20,240 bases of DNA. It comes from a virus. The stretch spans positions 1-20,240 of the IMG/VR virus record IMGVR_UViG_3300042518_001488; one strand, given 5' to 3'. Made by a program: the position numbers and the translations under genes. Position 1 is the stretch's first letter, and each line of letters starts with the position of its first letter. Shown piece by piece: positions 5,278 to 18,914 of the stretch. Below the pieces are notes generated by a model. It searched no databases and was not told where the DNA came from. It was given only the letters and a program-made list of their open reading frames with translations.

Positions 5278-5534
5278 AACCAACTGACGACGGCGGGCCA
5301 GCGTTTCCGTGTGTGGATGCACGCAACTTTGTTTCGACCGGCATGAGCCTGCGGGATTACTTTGCGGCCAGCGCAAGCGAGCAGGACATCGAAGAGCATT
5401 TGGGCGGCAAGATATCTCCGAAGACAGGTCGCAAGATAGACTGCCTGTCGCGAGAAAAAGCAAAATTCGCCTATGCCGATGCAATGATAAAAGCCAGGGT
5501 GGCCGATCCGGCAGAGGGGACTAGCCATGAGTGA
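5274..5534 (+). CDS. Conserved phage protein of the DGGPAFP / GMSLRDYFAA type (86 aa)
   Basis: ATG 5274 overlaps the previous TGA. It has the hallmarks of a widespread phage protein of unknown function: DGGPAFPC near the N-terminus, TGMSLRDYFAA in the middle and a helical end with YADAMIKAR. The usual length is about 80-100 residues, so this one is complete. It overlaps the exonuclease gene by 8 bases. Confidence 0.8.
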   Translation: MKPTDDGGPAFPCVDARNFVSTGMSLRDYFAASASEQDIEEHLGGKISPKTGRKIDCLSREKAKFAYADAMIKARVADPAEGTSHE

Positions 5535-6357
5535 CTATTACGCGATTAAGGCCCTATCGCATTCCATGCTGAGTTGTCTGGCCCAAAACCCGATGGAATG
5601 CCGGATGCGATATGTTGACGATCCACCAAGCCTACCGCCAAAAGACACGGCAGCGTTTGCGATGGGTCATGCGGTTCATTGCTTGGCGTTGGAGCCTGAG
5701 AGGTTCGACGAGCGGTTTGCGGTTGCCCCAAAGGTCGACAGGCGAACCACAGCGGGCAAGGTGGCTTGGGCCGAATACTTAGCAGACTGCGAAGGCAAAA
5801 CCATCCTCGACGATCAAGACTACGCCGACGCGGTGGCTTGCGTTCAGGCACTAAATAATCACCCTGAGTTTGCGGCGATCATGGCGCAGCCTCGGCGGGT
5901 CGAGGTGGAGCATCATTTTGATTTGTTCGGGCATCGGTTTAAGGCTCGGCTGGATTGCGTTATCGACTCGATGCGGTTGATCCTTGACATCAAGACAACC
6001 GACGACGCAAGCCCGCACAGGTGGCAATGGTCGGCGGTTGATTATGGGTATCATCGGCAGGCTTTCATCTACCAGGGGGCTGTGGAGCTTTCGCACGCAA
6101 ACAAAGAGCCCATCAGGGAATCGTACCGATTTATTTTCGCAGTCGTCGAGAAGCCAAAGCCGTCAACGCGGGGCATACCGCCAACGGTGGCATTGTATGA
6201 GCTTGACGATGCGACGATGCGAATGGGGGCCGAGGACACACACAGGCTAGTCCAGGATTACGAGACAAGACGAGAAACAAAGAATTGGCAGCAATACTAC
6301 AGCAGCGGGATTGTCCCCTTGCGGTTGCCAAAGCGAAGGGTTTACGAGGGAGAATAG
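5527..6357 (+). CDS. PD-(D/E)XK exodeoxyribonuclease (RecE/exonuclease VIII-like)
   Basis: This 276-residue protein matches the phage exonuclease-VIII-like PD-(D/E)XK nucleases. LSHSMLSCLAQNP at 10-22 and AFAMGHAVHCLALEPE at 44-58 carry the usual substrate helices with His51. The catalytic core is E127/E129, then KARLDCVID at 139-147 with Asp143, then ILDIKTT at 152-158 with Asp154 and Lys156, and YHRQAFIY at 175-182. It should resect double-stranded ends, leaving a single strand for the annealing protein encoded directly downstream; such exonuclease-RecT pairs act in recombination and replication. The start is ATG 5527 inside the previous gene's end. Confidence 0.9.
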   Translation: MSDYYAIKALSHSMLSCLAQNPMECRMRYVDDPPSLPPKDTAAFAMGHAVHCLALEPERFDERFAVAPKVDRRTTAGKVAWAEYLADCEGKTILDDQDYADAVACVQALNNHPEFAAIMAQPRRVEVEHHFDLFGHRFKARLDCVIDSMRLILDIKTTDDASPHRWQWSAVDYGYHRQAFIYQGAVELSHANKEPIRESYRFIFAVVEKPKPSTRGIPPTVALYELDDATMRMGAEDTHRLVQDYETRRETKNWQQYYSSGIVPLRLPKRRVYEGE

Positions 6358-6361
6358 AACG

Positions 6362-7303
6362 ATGACGAAAACGACAACAGACCAACCAGCGACGGCGGTA
6401 GATATTCCTACCGGAAAACAGCCAGCGGTAGAGATCCCTACGGGTAAACAGGCAGCGGGGGCCGTTGCGGTGGTTCAGGCGGCCAGGAAGGTTCTTACGT
6501 TCCGAGAGCGATGCTACGAAATCAGCTTCCCGATGCTCAAGAGCATGGTAGGCGAAGAAAGGGCCAAGGAGGCATCTGGGCGCGTCGCAGCGGCACTGGC
6601 GGCATCCAGGGCGGCAGCTAGAGACCCGAAGGACTTTGACTTGTGTACGGTCGAGAGTATTGGCCGGGTAGTCGCAGTCTCGGCTCTTACGGGAATCTAC
6701 CCTGGGACCGGGGCAACCGCTCTGGCCTATGCGATTCCAAGGAGACCGCGACAAGGCGAAGACCCGCAGCTAACCTACCAGCTATCTCATCGCGGATTGA
6801 ACGCTTTGGCGAATCGGGCAGGGGCTCACATGGTCGCGATTCCGATCAGCTACAACGATCAGATCGAGGTGACTGAGACCGGCGACGCGGTTATCCGGTC
6901 GATGGACTTGGACAACCCGCCGACGACCGAAGCGGAACTGCGGGGCGTTGTGGTCTTGGTCAAGCGACTCGATACAGGGACGCTTGTTTATGCGGGATGG
7001 GTTCCGAAGAAACTCATTCACGAACGCCGAGACGTTTCGGATTCGTTCAAGTACGCCGAAAGCCCGAAGGGAGATTGGTCTAAAGGCTCAAGCCCTTGGC
7101 ACGCATGGTATACTCCGCAAGCGATGAAAACGGCGATGCATTACGCAATAGCCCGAGGCTGGTGCGTGATCGACGACACAGACGCTCAACGGGCTCTATC
7201 TGCCGATGTTGAGAGCGATATCATCGACGTTGAATCCAGACCCTTGAACCGCGTCGCGCTCGGACGCAACGAACTACCAGCGATCGAGGGGCCAGCGGAA
7301 TGA
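6362..7303 (+). CDS. recT: RecT-family single-strand annealing protein
   Basis: Three hundred and thirteen residues from ATG 6362, four bases after the exonuclease stop. The core has TVESIGRVVAVSALTGIYPG at 96-115, then TGATALAYAIPRR and LTYQLSHRGLNALANRAG at 137-154, typical of RecT, which binds ssDNA and anneals complementary strands. The N-terminus is extended and holds two copies of (V/E)IPTGKQ at about residues 14-30, an imperfect internal repeat. The last codons (GPAE, stop) are duplicated at the end of the next gene. The product works with the upstream exonuclease. Confidence 0.9.
   Translation: MTKTTTDQPATAVDIPTGKQPAVEIPTGKQAAGAVAVVQAARKVLTFRERCYEISFPMLKSMVGEERAKEASGRVAAALAASRAAARDPKDFDLCTVESIGRVVAVSALTGIYPGTGATALAYAIPRRPRQGEDPQLTYQLSHRGLNALANRAGAHMVAIPISYNDQIEVTETGDAVIRSMDLDNPPTTEAELRGVVVLVKRLDTGTLVYAGWVPKKLIHERRDVSDSFKYAESPKGDWSKGSSPWHAWYTPQAMKTAMHYAIARGWCVIDDTDAQRALSADVESDIIDVESRPLNRVALGRNELPAIEGPAE
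7289..7301 (+). repeat. Gene-end repeat GGGCCAGCGGAAT, copy 1
   Basis: Identical to 7564-7576. Both copies encode the C-terminal EGPAE of their genes and run into the stop codon, so the gene at 7300 is bracketed by them. Confidence 0.65.
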
Positions 7304-7607: not shown

Positions 7608-7712
7608 ATGATCGCTACATGCGGCGTGCTGAGCAACTGTCCAAGGTTGCCGATCCTTTTGCCAACCCAATTCGGGGCGGCGTATGGAGGTGAATTATGG
7701 CCAGATACATAA
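7608..7712 (+). CDS. Possible small ORF altered by cassette insertion (34 aa)
   Basis: ATG 7608 follows CCAGGGGATCAGCCA. The product begins MIATCGVLSNCPRL and includes PTQFGAAYGGE, encoded by the 39-bp repeat at 7661-7699. The second repeat copy encodes PTHFGAAYGGE followed directly by TGA, overlapping the ATG of the membrane peptide at 8107. This suggests the original gene ended there and was cut off by insertion of the gene at 7697. The evidence is modest. Confidence 0.35.
   Translation: MIATCGVLSNCPRLPILLPTQFGAAYGGELWPDT
7661..7699 (+). repeat. 39-bp direct repeat containing RBS and start, copy 1
   Basis: Matches 8071-8109 at 37 of 39 bases (differences at 7670 and 7696). It includes TTCGGGGCGGCGTATGGAGG and ends in the ATG of the gene at 7697. 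Confidence 0.9.
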
Positions 7713-8071
7713 GAAAAGTCGCGTGGGTCGAGGCTAGGCAGTTTACTACAAACAACGAGCCGGACAATAAAGAAATGGATTCAATCATTTTGTGGCTAGA
7801 ATCAAATGGCACGAAGGCGACGCACGACGGCACGAGCATTTACATCAAGACGGCCAGCGGACAAGTAGCGGAGGCCGTTGTCGGCGACTTCATTGTATTT
7901 GATCGAAGCCTAGGGGTTTTGTTTTTGGCCAGCGAGTTTTCTTTTTCCGAGGCTTTTGAGGAGTGTACTCACGACTGGGAAGCCATCGACGATACCGATA
8001 AAGATCAGTGCTTGTTCTGCGAGGAAGTGCGGACGTATCCCGTGCAGTATTTTGGAGATGAAGTCTTGTAG
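7697..8071 (+). CDS. Phage-type protein with added C-terminal C..C segment (124 aa)
   Basis: ATG 7697 sits 7 bases after TGGAGG in repeat copy 1, and its TAG is the first base triplet touching repeat copy 2. The N-terminal 90 residues follow a common phage pattern: Y.RKV.WVEA.QFT, a DG-containing loop, IYIKTASGQVAEAVVGDFIV and a final S.F.EAFEE. After that comes an unusual tail with CTHDW and CLFC, possibly a small zinc site. The function of the family is unknown. The flanking repeats suggest it entered as a single-gene cassette. Confidence 0.75.
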   Translation: MARYIRKVAWVEARQFTTNNEPDNKEMDSIILWLESNGTKATHDGTSIYIKTASGQVAEAVVGDFIVFDRSLGVLFLASEFSFSEAFEECTHDWEAIDDTDKDQCLFCEEVRTYPVQYFGDEVL

Positions 8072-8109
8072 CCAACCCACTTCGGGGCGGCGTATGGAGG
8101 TGAATGATG
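8071..8109 (+). repeat. 39-bp direct repeat containing RBS and start, copy 2
   Basis: Copy 2 of 7661-7699. It ends at the ATG of the membrane peptide at 8107, so the same ribosome-binding site now serves two genes. Confidence 0.9.
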
Positions 8110-8181
8110 CTGGAGATACTACTATGGTTTATCGCGTTTGCTGTCTTTGTGTTTGTTGTTGCGTTTACGTTTGCATCGTAG
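8107..8181 (+). CDS. Tiny transmembrane peptide A (24 aa)
   Basis: ATG 8107 (or the adjacent ATG 8104) follows TGGAGGTGA. The product MLEILLWFIAFAVFVFVVAF plus four residues is one hydrophobic helix and little else. A second ORF in another frame (8124-8228) starts inside it. The same nested layout is repeated at 8238-8434. The function is unknown; a lysis or superinfection-related membrane role is inference. Confidence 0.5.
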   Translation: MLEILLWFIAFAVFVFVVAFTFAS

Positions 8182-8228
8182 GTTGCAAGGCGCAACCTGT
8201 GCGGTATGAGATCGCTCAAGTTTACTAG
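8124..8228 (+). CDS. Nested lipoprotein-like peptide A (34 aa)
   Basis: ATG 8124, in the +2 frame relative to peptide A, follows CTGGAGATACTACT. It has a lipoprotein signal: MVYR, a hydrophobic Cys-rich stretch, then the lipobox IVGC with Cys21 and a basic +2 residue, leaving a 14-residue mature peptide ending YEIAQVY. The copy at 8243 keeps the same layout, with synonymous changes (GGT/GGG, GAG/GAA) and an in-frame 3-base indel after the lipobox. It could resemble Rz1-type small lipoproteins, but no matching long spanin partner is present. Confidence 0.45.
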   Translation: MVYRVCCLCVCCCVYVCIVGCKAQPVRYEIAQVY

Positions 8229-8237
8229 GAGGTCCAA

Positions 8238-8297
8238 GTGACATGGCTCATCGTATTTTTTGTTTTTGTGTGCTTGGTTGTTTTGGTTTTTTCCTAG
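8238..8297 (+). CDS. Tiny transmembrane peptide B (19 aa)
   Basis: GTG 8238 follows AGGAGGTCCAA, the best ribosome-binding site in this area. The product MTWLIVFFVFVCLVVLVFS is entirely a membrane helix and ends in TAG at the position matching the end of peptide A. It is the second copy of the nested pair. Confidence 0.4.
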   Translation: MTWLIVFFVFVCLVVLVFS

Positions 8298-8434
8298 GGT
8301 GCAGGTCACCCGCAACGTATGAAATCATCGAGGTTTCAGATGGCGAAAAGATGCTCGATTTGCACCGATGGAATCGAGGCGTCAGGTGTCGACAAATGCC
8401 CGAAGTGCCAAGACCTGACAGAGCTTGGCGTTGA
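8243..8434 (+). CDS. Nested lipoprotein-like peptide B (63 aa if read to its stop)
   Basis: ATG 8243 is 10 bases after AGGAGG and in the +2 frame relative to peptide B. It begins MAHRIFCFCVLGCFGFFLGC with lipobox FLGC (Cys20), then R and ATYEIIEV, matching peptide A in order. Where copy A stops, this frame runs on for about 30 further codons into the zinc-ribbon gene at 8340, and that part looks non-functional. The call is tentative because the T-rich DNA could give such frames by chance. Confidence 0.35.
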   Translation: MAHRIFCFCVLGCFGFFLGCRSPATYEIIEVSDGEKMLDLHRWNRGVRCRQMPEVPRPDRAWR

Positions 8435-8984
8435 TCGGATTTCGATTTTGCTTCGGCACGCCAAGAAAATCCCGCGACGAGCCGAGCGGTATTTGGCTCG
8501 GATCGAACACTTCCGAGAGATTGACGCTAAGGCAGCGGAGGCGGCAAAGGCTGTCGTCGAGGTAATTGCCGAGCCGGTTGCTCAAAAGCACTGCAAGATT
8601 TGCGGAACGCCACCACGGCTCAAGGATCGCAACTGTTGCCGGGAATGCTTTGGCATCAAAAAAACAATCAGCGACCCCTACGAGATTTGCCAATTCTTGA
8701 TGCAAAAGCGACCTGAAAAGGCGGCTCAATATCAGGCGATGGCCGACCAGCACAGGCAGCGGATGATCGAAACTTCGGTCGACCCTAAAAGGGAGATCCG
8801 GATCAACAGACGGCTAGCGGCTTTGGCGGCTAGCATCAAGCCTTGCAAGCCGCGAATTGTGACGACCAACGGGGTCGAGTCGACTTGCCGATACTGGCGG
8901 TGTGGGCGTTGTCGAAACGTATTGACAAGGCCTAGTTGTTTGAAATGCGAACAGATTATTAAAGGAGAGATTCAAGATGACTGA
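8340..8984 (+). CDS. Multi-zinc-ribbon protein (214 aa)
   Basis: ATG 8340 follows GAGGTTTCAG; an in-frame ATG at 8319 lies in the duplicated leader. Three cysteine clusters are spread along the protein: CSIC...CPKC at the N-terminus, CKIC...CCREC near residue 85-105, and CRYWRCGRC...CLKC near the C-terminus, with basic helices between (LLRHAKKIPRRAERYLARIE; INRRLAALAAS). This suggests three zinc ribbons or treble clefs joined by helical linkers, most likely binding nucleic acid or protein. I recognise no named family. It overlaps the next gene by 8 bases. Confidence 0.7.
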   Translation: MAKRCSICTDGIEASGVDKCPKCQDLTELGVDRISILLRHAKKIPRRAERYLARIEHFREIDAKAAEAAKAVVEVIAEPVAQKHCKICGTPPRLKDRNCCRECFGIKKTISDPYEICQFLMQKRPEKAAQYQAMADQHRQRMIETSVDPKREIRINRRLAALAASIKPCKPRIVTTNGVESTCRYWRCGRCRNVLTRPSCLKCEQIIKGEIQDD

Positions 8985-9606
8985 AAAGATCGAGGCATTT
9001 TGGGAAAACGCAACGGCGAAGGATGTCGAGCGGGTGATGCAGGGCGAAACGGTGGAAGCTAGGTTTCGGGATTATGAAAACAGGGGTTGGCACCTGGGTG
9101 AACTTACGGGCTTTTCGCTCAGGGCGTGCCGAGGAAGGTGGGAGACCTACCCTTACTACTTCTACGAATGCCAAGTCTACCGCGAGCCAGCATCGACGCG
9201 CAGTCCAAAGGACGGCTGCCGAATGCTTGAGGGCAACAAACAGCCGATAAGTTTTTGCGACAACCTCGGAGACCTGATTGAATCCCAATCGGAATGGTCC
9301 CAAAAGACATTCGGGACAGACGAAGAGCGCGGGCCAATTGGAACGCTAAAGCATCTCGCAAAGGAAGCCAACGAAGCTCACGAGGCATTCGAGGCTCACG
9401 GAGGCAGCGATCGAAAGTACCTAGACGAGCTAGCAGACTGTTTTATTTTGCTTCTCGATGCAACGCGCAGGTCTAGGGTATCTTTTCCAGGCTTGGTTAA
9501 TCTTGCAATCGCGAAGATGGCAATCAACAAAGCCCGAACATGGCAGACGGGAAAAAACACGAACGAGCCGGTTGAGCACGTGAGAAGCGAAAGCGAGGCT
9601 AAATAA
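8977..9606 (+). CDS. Fusion: phage N-terminal domain plus DUF550/MazG-like pyrophosphohydrolase
   Basis: ATG 8977 follows AAAGGAGAGATTCAAG. Residues 1-70 (MTEKIEAFWENATAKDVERV..., GETVEARFRD, CQVYREP) are shared with the next gene. Residues 106-192 match DUF550-type phage dATP/dGTP diphosphohydrolases: EWSQKTFGTDEERGPIGTLK, then KEANEAHE with E130, E133 and E136, and DELADCFILLLDA with E151 and D154, the MazG-like metal ligands. The enzyme would hydrolyse purine dNTPs to NMP and pyrophosphate, adjusting nucleotide pools. The fusion of the two parts is unusual. Confidence 0.8.
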   Translation: MTEKIEAFWENATAKDVERVMQGETVEARFRDYENRGWHLGELTGFSLRACRGRWETYPYYFYECQVYREPASTRSPKDGCRMLEGNKQPISFCDNLGDLIESQSEWSQKTFGTDEERGPIGTLKHLAKEANEAHEAFEAHGGSDRKYLDELADCFILLLDATRRSRVSFPGLVNLAIAKMAINKARTWQTGKNTNEPVEHVRSESEAK

Positions 9607-10343
9607 TGACTACTGAAAAGATCGAGGATTTTTGGGAAAACGCAACGGCGGAAGATGTTGCGCGGGTGATGGCAGGGGAGACGGTTGAGGCTAGGTTTCG
9701 GGATGATAACTTGCAAGGGTGGACCACCAGGACGCTTTCAGGGTGGCAGACTACTGGAGTTAGGCCGTTGTGGCATTCAAGCGATGGGTTTGTGTGGACT
9801 AGATGCCAAGTCTACCGCGAACCCTCCTGGTGGACGAACAAGCCCGATCCAGGGCCGGGGTATCGGTTGCTTGGGAAGTTTCCCGATGAGCCCGTGGCTG
9901 TCGGCGATGAGTTTTTCAAGGCCGGCGAGTGGTATGAGACCTGTAGGCCCTCCGGAGATTCGCAAGATCGGAACGGCTGGTATCGCCGACGCATCGAGCA
10001 ACTGCTGAGCGGTCATCGATGGCTAGTTAGCGGAGATAGGCTTGAGTCCGGGGATCTGTACTACGAAAAAGGGGCTTTGCTCGAAGTTGGTCACGAGTAC
10101 TGGGGCAATAAGGTTATGCTTACCGAGGCTTTTATGCGCAAGATCGAGCAGCCGGAGCCCGAGCCGAAGCACTACGTTTTGCGGGTCGGCGATACGGTCG
10201 AGACTCCGAGCGGGCAATTAATTAAAGTTGTGAGTTCGAGCGTCGAGCAAATCGAATTCAAGTTAAGAGAAGGCTTCAAAGCGAAACTGCCGAACGGCCA
10301 GACGATCACGGCCACAGAAAAAGGCTATGAGGTGACGCAATGA
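9606..10343 (+). CDS. Phage accessory protein, paralogue of the MazG fusion's N-terminus (245 aa)
   Basis: ATG 9606 overlaps the previous TAA. Residues 1-75 repeat the preceding gene's N-terminal domain (EKIEDFWENATAEDVARVM..., GETVEARFRD, C-QVYREP), similar at DNA level over roughly the first 100 bases. The middle carries the common phage motif GYRLLGKFPDEPVAVGDEFF followed by a W-rich stretch. The C-terminal 60 residues (VLRVGDTVETPSGQLIKVVS..., LPNGQTITATEKGYEV) look like an SH3-like beta module. The role is unknown; it appears to be a mosaic of small phage domains. Confidence 0.75.
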   Translation: MTTEKIEDFWENATAEDVARVMAGETVEARFRDDNLQGWTTRTLSGWQTTGVRPLWHSSDGFVWTRCQVYREPSWWTNKPDPGPGYRLLGKFPDEPVAVGDEFFKAGEWYETCRPSGDSQDRNGWYRRRIEQLLSGHRWLVSGDRLESGDLYYEKGALLEVGHEYWGNKVMLTEAFMRKIEQPEPEPKHYVLRVGDTVETPSGQLIKVVSSSVEQIEFKLREGFKAKLPNGQTITATEKGYEVTQ

Positions 10344-10576
10344 AACGCGAATTGATTTTGATCTTTGCGTTTTCGTCGATCCTGACATTGTGCGTAGCGG
10401 CGAATAAATACTTTGAGGCCGAACCCAGCGACCCCCAACGCTACACAGTACACTTCGACGGCATCGACTACCAAGACCTGACGCGAATCGGTAGCTTTAG
10501 TCACGGGACCAGCTACAAAACCAAAGCGGGCAAACGCATTGAATTTCACGGATCTTTTTATGAGGTTGAGCAATGA
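10340..10576 (+). CDS. Exported or membrane-anchored small protein (78 aa)
   Basis: ATG 10340 overlaps the preceding TGA (ATGA). The N-terminus MKRELILIFAFSSILTLCVA is a classic signal peptide or anchor (two basic residues, hydrophobic core, small residues at the end). The remaining 55 residues are polar and strand-rich (YTVHFDGIDYQDLTRIGSFS). It probably acts in the periplasm or on the outer face of the inner membrane. The family is not recognised; a superinfection-exclusion role would be speculation. Confidence 0.65.
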   Translation: MKRELILIFAFSSILTLCVAANKYFEAEPSDPQRYTVHFDGIDYQDLTRIGSFSHGTSYKTKAGKRIEFHGSFYEVEQ

Positions 10577-11001
10577 CACAATGGCAAGCAACAACTAGAG
10601 GCGGGCATCTATCCCGGATCACGGCAACAGAACCCGATTCGGATTTCCTGATGCGCGGCGAGGTCGAGGACTCAGGATTCGTGGTTCGTTGCGAGTGGAG
10701 CAAAGACGGCAGGATTTCACCGGGCAGTGAAAGCCAATACGACCTAATTCCCATCGAACCAGAGGCCCCTAGCCCCGCGAAGGTGCGAGTCGATTTGGCT
10801 TTGGCGGCGATGGCGTACAAGCTAGCTAGCGACGCAGAGCAAGCAGCTATGGAAAGAATGAGCGATGCCGACGAGAAACTTCGAGAGGCTATGAGGGCGT
10901 GCGGTAAGGATAACGCTGTGGTTAAAATTCACGGCGAACTATTTCTGTTTCAGATCGACGAGGACGGCTGTATTTTTACCGAAAAAACGGAGGTGCTTTA
11001 A
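10573..11001 (+). CDS. Phage accessory protein with QW..TTRGG domain (142 aa)
   Basis: ATG 10573 overlaps the previous TGA. Residues 1-60 (MTQWQATTRGGHLSRI..., RGEV, W..DGR, YDLI) form a small beta-type domain shared with the next gene and, more weakly, the one after it. The C-terminal part is a helical segment (LALAAMAYKLASDAEQAAME) with a final strand pair. The function is unknown. The stop (TAATG) overlaps the next start. Confidence 0.7.
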   Translation: MTQWQATTRGGHLSRITATEPDSDFLMRGEVEDSGFVVRCEWSKDGRISPGSESQYDLIPIEPEAPSPAKVRVDLALAAMAYKLASDAEQAAMERMSDADEKLREAMRACGKDNAVVKIHGELFLFQIDEDGCIFTEKTEVL

Positions 11002-11447
11002 TGAGGCAATGGAAAGAAACCACACGCGGCGGCTACTGGGTGCGCGGCATCGAGCCGATTAACGGAGACGGCTACGGCTGGGACCTTCGCGGGGAAGTCG
11101 GCAATCACAGCAGCGAACCGCCGAGCGAAGATCCGGCAGACTGGGCTCAGGAGACGTGGCGGAGCGATGGGCGGTATGTGGTTGAGAAGGAAAGCTCTAT
11201 GGATTTAATTGAGGTGCAAATGGAACCAACACTTAGCAGCGACGAAATTCAAGTCTGGTGCGTTAGCCCGGACAAGCAAGGGGAAAACAACGAGATTGTG
11301 TTTGACAATCGAGACGAAGCCGAGGATTACGCCGAGCATGTTTTGTCCAATCTTTTCGACGACCTAGACGACGACTGCGAGGAAACAGTAACCATTCGGC
11401 GCGGGAAGATGTTGCGAAGCAAATACGAAAGCTTGGAGGATTGTTAG
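11001..11447 (+). CDS. Phage accessory protein with QW..TTRGG domain (148 aa)
   Basis: ATG 11001 shares a base with the preceding TAA. The N-terminal domain again reads M.QWKETTRGGYWVRGIEP...LRGEVG... W.SDGRY...SMDLIEV, a clear paralogue of the upstream gene. The C-terminal half differs: strands followed by a very acidic segment (FDNRDEAEDYAEH, LFDDLDDDCEE) and a short basic end. Acidic tails of this kind can mimic DNA or bind basic host proteins, but that is inference. Confidence 0.7.
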   Translation: MRQWKETTRGGYWVRGIEPINGDGYGWDLRGEVGNHSSEPPSEDPADWAQETWRSDGRYVVEKESSMDLIEVQMEPTLSSDEIQVWCVSPDKQGENNEIVFDNRDEAEDYAEHVLSNLFDDLDDDCEETVTIRRGKMLRSKYESLEDC

Positions 11448-18677: not shown

Positions 18678-18725
18678 TTGTCAAGCCCCTTGACTGGGGA
18701 TAAGATGTTGGAAAGGAGAAAAACC

Positions 18726-18914
18726 ATGAACTTAGGCGAACTTGTCAAGAGCAAACGATTTTGGGCGGCAGCGGCTACGATTGCCGTGGTTGTCCTCAAG
18801 GATCGCGTACCACTGTCCGAAGATCAGATTCAGCAACTTGTTTGGGTTATTGGAGCCTGGATCGTAGGCGATTCGGTACGACCCCTGCCCAAGCCCGATG
18901 AGGTGGCAAAGTGA
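18726..18914 (+). CDS. Small membrane protein, holin-like in position (62 aa)
   Basis: ATG 18726 follows GAAAGGAGAAAAACC. KRFWAAAATIAVVVL and QIQQLVWVIGAWIVGDSV give two membrane-compatible helices separated by a short charged loop with LSEDQI. The S-K-FW..........L...QI..I...I..-IG pattern recurs in small phage proteins near lysis or structural genes. It starts a new gene group after the 48-base gap, which contains a perfect 6-bp hairpin (18680-18694). Holin function is not demonstrated. Confidence 0.6.
   Translation: MNLGELVKSKRFWAAAATIAVVVLKDRVPLSEDQIQQLVWVIGAWIVGDSVRPLPKPDEVAK

Follow-up and report, generated by a model that had tools for sequence, protein, structure and literature searches.

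Entericidins are very small lipoproteins encoded by tandem genes, and they, as well as the colicin lysis lipoproteins, have longer mature peptides than the phage products considered here. In lambda, the lipoprotein Rz1 and its partner Rz act through interacting periplasmic domains, and mature Rz1 is 40 amino acids long (PMC6139136). Another phage lipoprotein, Llp of T5, resides at the outer membrane and causes superinfection exclusion (PMC9586334), and Rtp45, a protein of about 6 kDa, adds a beta strand to LptD, forming a beta sheet (PMC12685063). Few dual-start overlapping pairs have been described in bacteria and their phages; Kohl et al. 2022 name Thermus rnpA-rpmH, E. coli pqiA, tamA, and narQ, and the lambda holin/antiholin (PMC9841429).

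We analyzed a virus record of 20,240 bases (the window) belonging to an uncultivated phage group. The original prediction described two tandem units, each with a hydrophobic ORF and, in another frame, an ORF carrying a lipoprotein signal. Both units were found (Table 1), and the repeated and paired layout was borne out. In each unit, about 60 bases can be read in two frames, one giving a tiny predicted membrane peptide and the other a predicted lipoprotein export signal. We consider it likely that each unit is an overprinted two-protein gene for a mini-lipoprotein and a membrane peptide, an estimate that applies to the architecture and not to the role.

The comparison with described systems is as follows. 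Like lambda Rz/Rz1, the units pair a phage lipoprotein with an inner-membrane protein in a different frame. Here, however, the shared bases are those of the signal peptide, the partner consists of a bare helix, the mature core has only about 12 to 14 residues, and the locus is early instead of lying in a lysis cassette. The entericidins and colicin lysis lipoproteins are also very small but not nested, and we found no homology between them and the lipoproteins of the window. T5 Llp, Cor, and Rtp45 are likewise small phage lipoproteins predicted at the outer membrane, although they are larger, are not described as nested, and have receptor-binding or tail-tip genes as neighbors; for the lipoproteins here, no match to a sequence family was found. 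As in Thermus rnpA-rpmH and E. coli pqiA (PMC9841429), one Shine-Dalgarno (SD) sequence positions two starts in different frames. However, the Thermus starts read AUGGAUG and housekeeping proteins are encoded there, whereas the starts here are 5 nt (shared SD) or 17 nt (second SD) apart and the products are predicted to be membrane targeted. A search of open-licence papers turned up no earlier case of a membrane peptide with a lipoprotein signal overprinted on it.

Organization of the locus and its relatives

Both units belong to the early recombination region, where the recT region flanks them on one side and a Cys-rich ORF on the other. The Cys-rich ORF is listed from ATG 8319, a start ruled out by the in-frame stops that several relatives have between 8319 and 8340, and the true start is thus placed at 8340.

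Table 1. Features of the two units and their surroundings in the window
Feature	Position	Strand	Remarks
DUF3799 nuclease-like protein	5527-6357	+	Early region
RecT	Ends 7303	+	Early region; small ORFs follow 3' of recT, then units 1 and 2
SD GGAGG of unit 1 membrane peptide	8096-8100	+	3 nt before ATG 8104, 6 nt before ATG 8107
Unit 1 predicted membrane peptide, 25 aa (24 aa if begun at ATG 8107), MMLEILLWFIAFAVFVFVVAFTFAS	8104-8181	+	Stop 8179-8181
Internal GGAG, likely SD of unit 1 nested start	8112-8115	+	8 nt before ATG 8124
Unit 1 predicted nested lipoprotein, 34 aa, MVYRVCCLCVCCCVYVCIVGCKAQPVRYEIAQVY	8124-8228	+	ATG 8124, stop 8226-8228
SD AGGAGG of unit 2	8227-8232	+	5 nt before GTG 8238, 10 nt before ATG 8243
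Unit 2 predicted membrane peptide, 19 aa, GTG start, VTWLIVFFVFVCLVVLVFS	8238-8297	+	Stop 8295-8297
Unit 2 nested ORF, MAHRIFCFCVLGCFGFFLGCRSPATYEIIEV	ATG 8243, open to 8434	+	Supported product only about 8243-8335
Unit 2 predicted nested lipoprotein, conserved part, MAHRIFCFCVLGCFGFFLGC-RSPATYEIIEV	8243-8335	+	Lipobox FLGC (8291-8302)
GAGG, likely SD of downstream Cys-rich gene	8330-8333	+	Inside Glu-Val codons of unit 2 lipoprotein
In-frame run-on of unit 2 lipoprotein ORF into next gene	8336-8434	+	No selection in lipoprotein frame
Cys-rich ORF	Start 8340	+	Directly 3' of unit 2
dATP/dGTP pyrophosphohydrolase-like protein	8977-9606	+	Domain match over residues 101-207
Holin-like gene	18678-18914		About 10 kb from the two units

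The nested ORF of unit 1 reads MVYRVCCLCVCCCVYVCIVGC-KAQPVRYEIAQVY, with the lipobox IVGC (8175-8186) and a predicted mature peptide, CKAQPVRYEIAQVY, of 14 residues, and its likely SD falls within the codons for Leu-Glu in the membrane peptide. In unit 2, the AGGAGG is common to both starts and overlaps the stop codon of unit 1; the conserved core of the mature lipoprotein has 12 to 13 residues, and three relatives (L004, L007, and L025) have ATG in place of the GTG. The lipoproteins carry a type II signal, as judged by motif only, and Lys or Arg follows the lipobox Cys. When a generic lipoprotein-signal pattern combined with an SD was searched in six frames of the whole window, exactly two ORFs matched, both of them the nested ORFs, and in five related genomes of 38 to 42 kb the same pattern matched only homologues of the nested ORF. 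The nested lipoprotein ORFs exceed chance expectation. Rfam gave no match for the locus, and RNA structure there was nothing stronger than that of shuffled sequence.

Relatives were gathered by scans with the downstream protein, RecT, a 124-aa ORF, the lipoprotein alignment, and DNA patterns, which yielded about 25 viral contigs. The lipoprotein frame was present in 22 of 25 records as 29 copies (a second G015 row, E = 0.0156, was left out of this count), with a tandem pair in seven records. Since G002 to G004 are locally identical, as are G019 to G021, there are fewer independent lineages than records. No relatives of recT were found in named phages or cellular genomes, and TerL and portal of one relative showed only about 30% identity to those of diverse phages.

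The copies differ in how the two starts are arranged. In the 5-nt class (ATGGAATGG, ATGACATGG, GTGACATGG), the starts are 5 nt apart and most copies have one SD common to both, at spacings of 5 to 6 and 10 to 11 nt. Unit 2 shows this ambiguous-start arrangement, two starts in different frames on one SD, and the same layout occurs in L004, L007, L012, L018, and others. In the 17-nt class, 17 nt separate the starts (20 nt when counted from ATG 8104), and the nested start is preceded at 7 to 8 nt by a second SD, within the codons for the conserved Glu of the membrane peptide; this SD reads GGAG or GAGG in all copies of this class except unit 1 of L022 (GGAT). In L044, the membrane frame has no standard start close to an SD and only a GTG 29 nt upstream. 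Frameshifting in place of independent starts was rejected, as the 17-nt class (TTT GCA TCG TAG) lacks a slippery site and each nested copy carries an ATG or GTG of its own.

In four relatives (L021, L009, L052, and L020), the lipoprotein has no peptide nested over its signal, and in the first three of these GGAGG, a strong ribosome-binding site, lies just upstream. The un-nested form of L021 is MRILFLCLFFLGCKSQPATYEIIEV and reads MRILFLCLFFLGC-KSQPATYEIIEV; the divergent one of L020 is MRFLVLLAVLAGCKSAPVQYEMMEV and reads MRFLVLLAVLAGC-KSAPVQYEMMEV, and a separate hydrophobic ORF of 28 aa (MLSELLNLGGVCAAVLVLLSTVAALCDS) overlaps the lipoprotein start with its end. A third tiny ORF of L020 (MTALLFLAGFVLGCSFGCGVTLWGLMDA), at 1390-1480, contains VLGC, which resembles a lipobox; it lies just 5' of the membrane-peptide and lipoprotein ORFs, and its end overlaps the next start.

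Several further observations were made in the region. A conserved segment, GCCAACCC-ACTTC-GGGGCGGCGTATGGAGGT, occurs in the window at 7654-7699 and 8064-8109 and in many loci, where it precedes several different gene starts across the group, as if it were a fixed junction for gene swapping; its small hairpin is no stronger than those of shuffles. tRNA genes or tRNA-like sequences end just 5' of this segment (L052:1540-1621 and L021:5461-5533), and further loci also show tRNA-like 3' ends, which suggests tRNA-flanked gene exchange. In two pairs of adjacent ORFs, the members resemble each other: 8977-9606 and 9606-10343 have closely similar N termini, M(T)TEKIE.FWENATA.DV.RVM.GETVEARFRD, with differing C-terminal parts, and 10573-11001 and 11001-11447 have related starts, MTQWQATTRGG and MRQWKETTRGG, which are repeated in relatives. 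Besides, an in-frame tandem repeat of 30 bases (AVEIPTGKQP-like) lies at 6395-6458 of the window, in the RecT N terminus.

Constraint on the two reading frames

We compared synonymous and nonsynonymous changes in 24 intact copies over an alignment of 14 codons (G-C-x-x-(x)-P-x-x-Y-E-I-I-E-V). Of the 39 distinct substitutions, 23 were synonymous in the lipoprotein frame, against 9.7 expected (p < 0.00005), and 23 were at third codon positions, whereas the other two frames over the same codons showed no synonymous excess and four stop changes each. The excess persisted when the codons of the downstream SD, the copies of type A, or the two members that diverge most were dropped. This purifying selection, together with the intact frame in 28 of 29 copies and the four un-nested relatives, upholds the earlier claim that the nested frame is translated as a lipoprotein, which we regard as most likely. 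A nested frame broken by a stop, which would have spoken against that claim, occurs once, in unit 1 of L022, where Gln is changed to a stop, the nested SD is lost, and the lipobox Cys is replaced by Arg, with the membrane frame kept. Because the SD and the lipobox Cys are degraded too, this unit reads as a dead copy and not as evidence against translation in the other copies.

The original prediction had also drawn on synonymous differences and an in-frame indel after the lipobox between the two copies of the window. This stood only in part: CCT/CCC and GAG/GAA are synonymous and CAA is lost in frame, but most differences there are nonsynonymous (K/R, A/S, V/A, R/T, A/I, and Q/E), and the synonymous excess is visible only across homologues. 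The proposed comparison of both frames succeeded for the lipoprotein frame in the mature region, but within the overlap the counts did not tell the frames apart, because both accept hydrophobic swaps.

In place of a synonymous-rate test, we therefore used a codon-choice simulation, in which the lipoprotein peptide was held fixed and codons were drawn from phage usage. No more than 0.55% of draws (P ≤ 0.0055) attained the observed hydrophobicity of the membrane frame in all 12 nested copies tested, among them unit 1 of the window (P = 0.0007 to 0.001), whereas in three un-nested controls the hydrophobicity of the other frame was reached in 44 to 70% of draws (0.44 to 0.70). The reverse simulation, with the membrane peptide fixed, gave P ≤ 0.0073, and both held with gene-start codon usage (first 20 codons of 230 ORFs); these tests rest on a codon-usage null, and the P values of single copies lack independence because the copies are related. 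With dinucleotide shuffling of the segment, both frames arose together in 0 to 4.4% of cases (0 to 0.044). Thus, the membrane frame is also under constraint. Its peptide has 19 to 25 residues and in all nested copies ends at the hydrophobic stretch or no more than 1 to 2 residues from it. The nested membrane start is absent in L021, L009, and L052; the peptide is not universal and is therefore dispensable, a point against the two-protein architecture.

The end of the unit 2 lipoprotein differs from this picture. Beyond the conserved V its ORF stays open, and most of the final 32 codons of 8243-8434 overlap the Cys-rich gene. Selection in the shared stretch is strong on the downstream frame (34 synonymous changes versus 13.5 expected), and none was detected in the lipoprotein frame (13 versus 14.3), so that about 8243-8335 is the sole supported product of this ORF. 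Tail length varies from 31 to 90 codons among complete relatives, and the conserved E-V partly coincides with the likely SD of the downstream gene. A lipoprotein without a nearby stop and with an unconstrained run-on is odd for a mature lipoprotein and counts against the two-protein architecture.

Alternative explanations

It is possible, although we consider it unlikely, that the lipoprotein is the only functional product and that the membrane ORF is a translational device setting a low lipoprotein level, its start capturing ribosomes so that initiation is split between the two starts. Three relatives without the nested membrane start, the upstream hydrophobic ORF of L020, whose end overlaps the lipoprotein start in the manner of translational coupling, and the better SD spacing at the membrane start in most nested copies are in line with such a device. 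However, a leader need not be hydrophobic, yet hydrophobicity beats expectation in every nested copy tested, and the membrane frame of L022 unit 1 is intact though its lipoprotein is dead.

Still less probable is a toxic module, in which an Ibs/TisB-like depolarizing peptide and a bacteriolytic or colicin-lysis-like lipoprotein would damage the envelope early or on command. The absence of a family match (searches of Pfam and PHROGs with the small proteins gave nothing useful) and a mature peptide much shorter than the colicin lysis proteins argue against it, while the size and composition, which resemble those of known toxic peptides, and the tandem small lipoproteins, which recall entericidins, serve as leads.

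The likeness to Rz/Rz1 spanins suggested in the original prediction did not hold. According to this proposal, the lipoprotein would be a minimal o-spanin and the membrane peptide an i-spanin, disrupting the outer membrane at lysis. An out-of-frame nested lipoprotein with an inner-membrane partner does fit an o-spanin, the frame with the lipobox is under selection, and one A1 member gave a hint to an Rz-like spanin family in PHROGs at E = 0.77, which was the only such match, with none relevant in Pfam. An i-spanin, by contrast, has an N-terminal transmembrane segment and a periplasmic domain reaching the outer membrane; the membrane partner here lacks a periplasmic domain, and because of this the periplasm cannot be spanned. 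Furthermore, the locus lies beside recT and not with holin and endolysin genes: in G013, the lipoprotein is at 21.9 kb, about 8 to 10 kb from the holin-like gene (13.2 to 13.4 kb) and a papain-like peptidase (10.8 to 11.6 kb). The un-nested forms in L021, L009, and L052 have no partner at all, and we regard a spanin as very improbable.

Equally improbable is chance, by which T/G-rich DNA would be hydrophobic in more than one frame, as T/G-rich stretches are in all frames, and the lipobox coincidental: although the synonymous counts within the overlap do not separate the frames, selection acts in the mature region outside the T/G-rich part, un-nested copies have a normal ribosome-binding site, the joint shuffle probabilities are low, the pattern is unique in the genome, and for the lipoprotein frame this reading is already contradicted.

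Possible role and meaning for the phage group

If each unit is an overprinted two-protein gene, one mRNA segment of the carrier, putatively a siphovirus-like phage, would be read in two frames. The upstream start would give a single-helix inner-membrane peptide of 19 to 25 residues, and initiation 5 or 17 nt further on, in the other frame, would give a lipoprotein, with its signal peptide coming from the same bases. Both peptides would be translated, made together, and active early in infection. The lipoprotein would be lipidated and, in a diderm host, directed to the outer membrane by the Lys or Arg after the Cys, although this sorting rule comes from Gram-negative model bacteria and may not apply to the host of this phage.

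As for the role, we lean, weakly and with considerable doubt, to superinfection exclusion or envelope modification, since outer-membrane phage lipoproteins do so and Y-E-I-I-E-V is beta-prone. By analogy with T5 Llp or Rtp45, this short tail might engage an outer-membrane protein, and the membrane peptide might act in the inner membrane or tune the number of ribosomes starting the lipoprotein. Against an exclusion role, the mature core is much shorter than in known examples, and the gene is not beside tail genes, either receptor-binding or tail-tip. With somewhat more confidence, but still tentatively, we suggest that one ribosome-binding region may yield a matched inner- and outer-membrane pair at a fixed ratio, which would represent a new overprinted class of envelope effectors distinct from spanins.

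The family forms a natural series of one gene, with no nested peptide, 5-nt, 17-nt, end-overlapping, and decayed arrangements, and this series makes the origin of overprinted pairs and the sharing of one SD by two starts testable. It also implies that lipoprotein signals can hide in ORFs below the usual gene-calling limits, and that phage envelope effectors of such size may be routinely missed.
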